Below are positions 55,578 through 56,600 of a stretch of DNA of 64,000 bases, one piece after another (within the stretch, counting starts at the first letter, position 1; every line of letters starts with the position of its first letter). The position numbers and the translations under genes were made by a program. Location: contig CAINMV010000005.1 of assembly GCA_903850915.1 (NCBI GenBank), forward strand, positions 1 to 64,000, given 5' to 3'. The stretch is from an uncultured Bacteroidota bacterium (GTDB lineage: Bacteria; Bacteroidota; Bacteroidia; UKL13-3). The notes beneath the pieces were generated by a model that saw nothing but the letters and a program-made list of their open reading frames with translations, made no database searches and had not been told where the DNA came from.

Positions 55578-56390
55578 CTATTCCTCATCTACCTCAATTC
55601 GACGATCTTTATTAGGAATTAAGGTCATATTGTTTTTTTGAAGTATTTCGCGAGCCAAATTCATATAATTAATAGTTCCTTTACTCTCAGCATCATGATT
55701 AATCACAGGAACACCAAAACTAGGCGCCTCACTTAACTTTGTATTACGAGATATGATGGTATCAAATACCAAGTCCTGGAAATGTGTCTTCACCTCCTCT
55801 ACTACTTGATTGCTCAAACGCAATCTTGAGTCGTACATTGTAAGTAGAATGCCTTCGATATCTAATTCTTGGTTGAGGTTGGTTTGGATTATTTTAATCG
55901 TATTTAATAGTTTCCCTAATCCTTCCAAAGCAAAATATTCGCATTGTACAGGAATAAGAACAGAGTTTGATGCAGTAAGGGAATTGGTTGTAATCAAGCC
56001 AAGACTTGGGGAGCAATCGATAATTATAAAATCGAATTGTCCTTTAATTTTCTCTAAAAGCTTCTTCATTAATTTCTCTCTTCCTGAGAGCTCTATAAGC
56101 TCCAACTCTGCTCCTACCAGGTCAATATTACTTGGCAAGAGATAGAGATTGTCGAAGTCGCTTTCTAAAATAATATCTTTAGCGTCAATACCATTTATAA
56201 GGCATTCATAGAGTCCGGTTTTAATAATTCGAGGATCAAATCCCAACCCTGAGGTGCTATTGGCCTGAGGGTCAGCATCTACAAGAAGCGTTTTATACTC
56301 TAATGCTGCAAAACTTGCGGCCAAGTTTATTGCAGTTGTGGTTTTTCCTACACCGCCCTTTTGGTTGGCCACACTTATTATTTTACCCAT
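55578..56390 (-). CDS. parA: Chromosome-partitioning ATPase ParA (Soj)
   Basis: A 270-residue deviant Walker A ATPase that moves ParB-parS complexes. NQKGGVGKTTTAINLAAS is the deviant Walker A; LLVDADPQANSTSGLG the switch I region; and FIIIDCSPSLGLIT the Walker B. I chose the ATG at 56390, where the family begins (MGKIISVANQKGG); the frame upstream runs through the promoter. It is the first gene of the parAB group and has its own promoter flanked by an inverted repeat. Confidence 0.96.
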   Translation of the reverse strand: MGKIISVANQKGGVGKTTTAINLAASFAALEYKTLLVDADPQANSTSGLGFDPRIIKTGLYECLINGIDAKDIILESDFDNLYLLPSNIDLVGAELELIELSGREKLMKKLLEKIKGQFDFIIIDCSPSLGLITTNSLTASNSVLIPVQCEYFALEGLGKLLNTIKIIQTNLNQELDIEGILLTMYDSRLRLSNQVVEEVKTHFQDLVFDTIISRNTKLSEAPSFGVPVINHDAESKGTINYMNLAREILQKNNMTLIPNKDRRIEVDEE

Positions 56391-56420: not shown

Positions 56421-56450
56421 CGTGAAACATTCAAAAATACATGTTTCACG
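56421..56450. repeat. Inverted repeat of parS-like half-sites around the parA promoter
   Basis: CGTGAAACAT (56421-56430) and ATGTTTCACG (56441-56450) are exact reverse complements with a ten-base spacer. Each holds the eight-base half of the universal parS (TGTTTCAC/GTGAAACA) in opposite order, so the pair is not a canonical parS. Confidence 0.75.
56432..56439 (-). promoter_or_regulatory. -7 promoter element of parA inside the inverted repeat
   Basis: TATTTTTG on the minus strand matches TAnnTTTG. It falls in the spacer between the two half-sites and 41 bases before the ATG at 56390. AAAGGAG lies in the leader but too far from the ATG to be its Shine-Dalgarno. Confidence 0.5.
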
Positions 56451-56531
56451 GAACTCATTTAGAGTTAAATTCAAGTAAAGTTGGAAAGCCTAGAGCCACG
56501 CGGAAATTTGTTTTTAACATATCAACAATAG

Positions 56532-56540
56532 TGTGGATAA
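56532..56540 (-). promoter_or_regulatory. Perfect DnaA box near parA
   Basis: TTATCCACA on the minus strand is the strong DnaA box. Only one was seen in the 210-base gap, so it may be a regulatory site or chance rather than an origin. Confidence 0.5.
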
Positions 56541-56600
56541 CTCAATTTTGTGATCAAAGACATAACGAAAAAACAAAACCAAGAATAAAACAATTTAATA

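Follow-up and report, generated by a model that had tools for sequence, protein, structure and literature searches.

A pair of half-parS sites was identified at the promoter region of the parAB operon in a 64,000-nucleotide stretch of DNA from an uncultured Bacteroidota bacterium (the window, hereafter), and ParB probably controls its own production, because half-site pairs recur, variously arranged, at the par promoter of numerous related genera. It is considered reasonably probable that ParB, at these half-parS sites, regulates and most likely represses its own parAB operon, with the promoter detail as the least certain part of this reading. The coordinates of the features are given in Table 1.

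A perfect inverted repeat occupies positions 56421-56450, with 10-bp arms around a 10-bp spacer, and ends 31 bp 5' of the parA ATG. The left 10-bp arm (56421-56430) is CGTGAAACAT and the right one (56441-56450) is ATGTTTCACG, and the exact inverted copies described in the earlier note were confirmed as perfect reverse complements, with 0 matches to the inverted-repeat pattern in 100 shuffles of the window and a single occurrence in the 2.94-Mb genome. The spacer between the 10-bp arms is TCAAAAATAC, which reads GTATTTTTGA on the minus (parA) strand. Each arm contains TGTTTCACG, representing one parS half together with the next base (9 of the 16 bp of parS), and the half-parS heptamer (GTTTCAC or GTTCCAC) is present in both arms. 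The earlier note had also stated that the halves stand in outward order and do not make a normal parS; this holds, with 12 bp between the 9-bp arms and with no match to the canonical 16-bp parS palindrome TGTTYCACGTGRAACA in the window at up to 3 mismatches. A wide GTGAAACA regulon was considered and rejected, the outward pair being present once in the genome.

The perfect parS of the genome, TGTTTCACGTGAAACA, was found at C11:23535, inside a ybeY-like ORF just 5' of mnmG (presumed names, both assigned by eye from the protein sequences), and a second parS copy, AGTTCCACGTGAAACA, is located 297 bp from TGTTTCACGTGAAACA on the same contig. As the genome's own parS is TGTTTCACGTGAAACA, each repeat arm corresponds to half of that very parS plus the next base, and the presence of a parS half in each arm, also claimed previously, was thus verified over 9 bp against the native site.

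Table 1. Features of the par locus in the window, with positions counted from the first letter of the window.
Feature	Position	Strand	Remark
parB, 304 aa	54578..55492	-	ParB_N, HTH_ParB and ParB_C; parS-type specificity residues
parA, 270 aa	55578..56390	-	Without N-terminal DNA-binding extension
Half-parS arm proximal to parA, TGTTTCACG on the parA strand	56421..56429	-	9/9 columns invariant in five genus genomes
Candidate parA -7 element, TATTTTTG	56432..56439	-	Sole TAnnTTTG-like match per intergenic region
Half-parS arm distal to parA, CGTGAAACA on the parA strand	56442..56450	-	9/9 columns invariant in five genus genomes
54-nt conserved intergenic block, which holds the dyad and ends in GGCTCTAGGC	56488..56541	-	41/54 columns invariant in the genus
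DnaA-box-like 9-mers as an inverted pair, TTATCCACA-CTAT-TGTTGATAT	56519..56540	-	At the par operon promoter in 50/59 relatives

The presence of the same arrangement 5' of parA in related genomes had been proposed as a check, and GTGAAACA-N12-TGTTTCAC was found at the same place in each of the other four genus genomes. Across the five genomes, which represent about four lineages because two are nearly identical at the repeat, none of the 18 columns of the two 9-bp arms varies. The 12-bp spacer, reading TA[TC]TTT[TC]GAA in the genus, is invariant in 8 of its 12 columns, and the leader down to the ATG in 4 of 30. Given this conservation in the genus, the aligned sequences indicate that the repeat is more than chance. 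The bases flanking the arms outside and inside vary in the genus and their pairing is not kept, as would be expected for a protein site and not for an RNA stem.

In the housekeeping promoters of Bacteroidota, a -33 TTG is located about 17-23 bp 5' of the -7 element, for which the consensus is TAnnTTTG. The -7 element that the earlier note placed in the spacer, TATTTTTG, conforms to this consensus and is the only TAnnTTTG-like match within 215 bp 5' of parA in each of the five genus genomes, where TATTTTCG of two species (G002 and G004), with one mismatch to TAnnTTTG, was counted as a match. The match is modest and the assignment weaker than the earlier note had it: two species read TATTTTCG, and a -33 TTG at a spacing of 17-23 bp was not found 5' of TATTTTTG in the genus genomes, the closest TTG being 32 bp away here and none being found in two species. 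We lean slightly towards TATTTTTG as a true -7 element; the transcription start and the exact promoter are placed by prediction.

For the comparison across the family, the DNA 5' of 59 parA genes from 14 genera (g1 to g14, with g1 as the genus of the window) was used. A second conserved element, a dyad resembling two inverted DnaA boxes that the earlier note does not mention, is located 5' of the half-sites in the window. The form of the dyad is TTATCMACA-N4-TGTTGATA, with TCMACA-N4-TGTKGA-like sequences at the par promoter across about ten genera, and the strict form occurs about once per genome and mostly at the par promoter. A TTATTTG-like box follows the dyad after about 29-30 bp in g3, g6, g10 and g12; the window's genus is organized differently, its TAYTTTYG being about 80 bp from the dyad, and the candidate -7 element of g1 and the TTATTTG box of the other genera do not coincide in position. 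A dyad of this type was also observed just 5' of an mraZ-like gene, the first of a cell-wall/division cluster, in g8 (L188 and L189, at about 3001; G011 and G022), so the binder of the dyad may link division and segregation genes. A replication origin (oriC) at the par promoter, prompted by TTATCCACA, was considered and found no support: on the window contig, GC skew does not change sign between 54 and 66 kb, and in the sampled stretches of a single-contig relative (G025), one sign of GC skew predominates to either side of parA, with noise near the gene.

Half-parS 8-mers, searched as TGTTYCAC/GTGRAACA, recur at the par operon promoters of 8 of the 14 genera in outward, inward, direct or single arrangement, and the paired half-sites are frequently 20-22 bp apart. 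Outward pairs were found in g1 (20 bp between starts), g6 (19-22 bp) and g10 (26 bp, with degenerate first bases), those of g6 and g10 being located 5' of the dyad, and inward pairs in g12 (20 bp) and g2 (104 bp, on either side of the dyad). Direct repeats 22 bp apart are present in nearly all g3 genomes, with one genome of g3 carrying three sites at 11-bp steps, the half-sites of g8 and g11 are mostly single, and no half-parS pair was seen in g4, g5, g7, g9, g13 or g14. The g3 sites, found with TT[TC]CAC alone, retain GTT[TC]CAC and vary chiefly in their first base, at the T/C position and in the base 3' of CAC. Since the arrangement differs by genus, the g6 and g10 sites are located 5' of the dyad and six genera are without a pair, the sites have no constant place with respect to the promoter. 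Three direct half-parS sites with exact 11-bp steps, equal to one helical turn, were observed at about 705-726 bp 5' of parA in L054 (G059).

parA is stand-alone in many genomes. Elsewhere, parA is directly preceded by a metal-dependent-hydrolase-like gene that separates it from the par promoter, as was observed in many genera (e.g. in the genomes L058 and L071) and not in the others, including the window; the operon promoter is then 480-860 bp away. As the half-sites are located 480-860 bp 5' of parA where this gene intervenes, the sites follow the promoter.

Among the 50 dyad-bearing genomes, 73 half-sites were counted in 12.7 kb around the dyad versus 3 in the remaining 45.3 kb of DNA 5' of parA, counts that come from related and so not independent genomes and from a motif and a dyad anchor picked after viewing the data; at least one half-site is present in 44 of these genomes. 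A set of one genome for each of ten genera with stand-alone parA contained 10 sites and 4 close pairs, compared with shuffle means of 0.26 and 0.0015, respectively. At the promoters of other families of the class, half-sites were not found, apart from one site in G051. In a set of 80 named loci, pairs amounted to a full parS or a near copy in three loci labelled Firmicutes/Clostridia and in one deltaproteobacterium. A direct half-parS-like pair, 10 bp apart and 83-93 bp 5' of parA, was also observed among these 80 loci in a Cytophagales MAG outside the family (L102).

The parA start was assigned to the ATG at 56390 (minus strand) rather than to the TTG of a longer ORF, because related ParAs align from residue 1. 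The deduced ParA is of the chromosomal type, with an AAA_31 ATPase domain from residue 3 and with the protein opening at the Walker motif, and the N-terminal DNA-binding domain that characterizes Class Ia autoregulated par operons is absent from its 270 residues. In an alignment with B. subtilis Spo0J, ParB retains the GKDR and SMGHAR motifs, and ParB R167 and G195 are equivalent, by our own counting from these two motifs, to R173 and G201 of the parS-specificity code in Caulobacter, which have been described as fully invariant among ParB orthologs and altered in Noc (PMC7383237). Because ParB keeps the equivalents of R173 and G201 and ParA is without an N-terminal DNA-binding domain, the likely binder of the half-sites is ParB and not ParA. 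An operator of split parS halves, as put forward in the earlier note with ParB or ParA as the binder, is well supported in comparative terms by the conservation in the genus and by the family-wide recurrence in varied arrangements, with ParA disfavoured as the binder.

In ChIP-seq, the ParBs of P. aeruginosa and certain other species occupy solitary GTTTCAC/GTTCCAC half-sites (PMC7022226, PMC10419367), with local, narrow peaks that need no spreading in P. aeruginosa (PMC7022226, PMC10419367). Half-parS binding was not seen for nine compared ParBs, including those of B. subtilis and V. cholerae (PMC7022226), so it is species-dependent. For the ParB of the window, binding to the half-sites is considered likely. 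One ParB dimer, or two, would touch both TGTTTCACG arms via the parS-reading helix-turn-helix. The outward arms, at about 20-21 bp (two helical turns) from each other, do not form a 16-bp parS for clamp loading, and ParB would as a consequence stay bound locally, which in the genus of the window would be across or beside the parA start site. Abundant free ParB would then repress parAB, with negative feedback on the levels of both ParA and ParB.

Binding by another transcription factor with a GTGAAACA-type site, with the parS likeness as a coincidence, is considered unlikely. Dyad-symmetric promoter arms are typical of many repressors, and a separate dyad is also present in the par promoter, but over 9 bp the arms coincide with the genome's own parS, each genus genome has such paired sites at the par promoter and nowhere else, and the half-sites of the family keep TT[TC]CAC with a T/C variation that matches that of the family's full parS sites. 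Furthermore, inward, direct and outward orders would not be tolerable for a dimeric repressor of fixed geometry.

The half-sites may instead tether or store ParB near its own operon, in a role that is topological or that of a reservoir, and affect transcription little. Such a reservoir was proposed for the half-parSs of P. aeruginosa, where few local expression effects were found (PMC10419367) and where, after the mutation of 25 half-parSs, the adjacent gene was changed for only two (PMC10419367); the variable position of the sites relative to the promoter among genera would also suit it. A reservoir, however, requires neither the concentration of the sites at one promoter region nor their following of this promoter across an intervening gene, and such a role is judged improbable here.

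The remaining alternative, an RNA hairpin formed by the repeat in the parA leader and acting on translation or transcript stability, is very improbable: the transcribed strand does fold into the 10-bp hairpin that the earlier note had mentioned (-17.9 kcal/mol for 80 nt, z -4.1), and the repeat would be within the leader if transcription starts upstream, but the arms never vary and thus give no compensatory change, pairs beyond them are not kept, Rfam gave no match above threshold (sub-threshold chance matches only), and a conserved function is disfavoured because direct-repeat genera, like single-site ones, are unable to form the hairpin.

Regulation of parAB by ParB from the half-sites is preferred to these alternatives. 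In its general form, that a chromosomal ParB controls its own operon via pairs of centromere half-sites, free in orientation, with two halves near the promoter and often about two helical turns apart, the proposal is given an even chance. If true, ParB would be dual-mode, as a clamp at the whole parS and as a classical repressor at the split parS, and half-parS sites would gain a direct, conserved regulatory function.

Neither half-parS binding nor par autoregulation is new. In the open-access literature searched, no papers were found on ParABS in Bacteroidota, nor was a chromosomal par promoter with family-retained half-parS pairs of changing order and spacing. The role of half-parS binding has been called enigmatic in P. 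aeruginosa (PMC10419367), and half-sites that are concentrated and repeatedly rearranged within a family point to a conserved, testable function for it. The family would supply a feedback circuit for a chromosomal par operon, and its natural spacing and orientation variants would be useful for asking how ParB separates binding from clamp loading.

The sites described here are like the half-parS of P. aeruginosa, whose motif, GTTTCAC or GTTCCAC, is half of parS (PMC7022226, PMC10419367). Those sites are scattered in hundreds, with only 15% in intergenic regions with putative transcription signals, whereas the pairs of the present family cluster at the promoter of the par operon and have been kept in different genera. 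When set against the 16-bp parS, at which ParB nucleates, an arm corresponds precisely to one half and the base that follows, but the halves point outward, 12 bp apart, and do not constitute a 16-bp palindrome. The partition proteins of Class Ia plasmid par operons (P1, F) and the KorB-type ParB regulators control their own operon from the promoter (PMC7022226, PMC8465637), as would ParB here. The Class Ia repressor is ParA, acting via an N-terminal DNA-binding domain that is absent here, and chromosomal ParAs are without the domain that autoregulates plasmid par operons (PMC7022226); unlike in Class Ia, the putative operator here is built of centromere halves.
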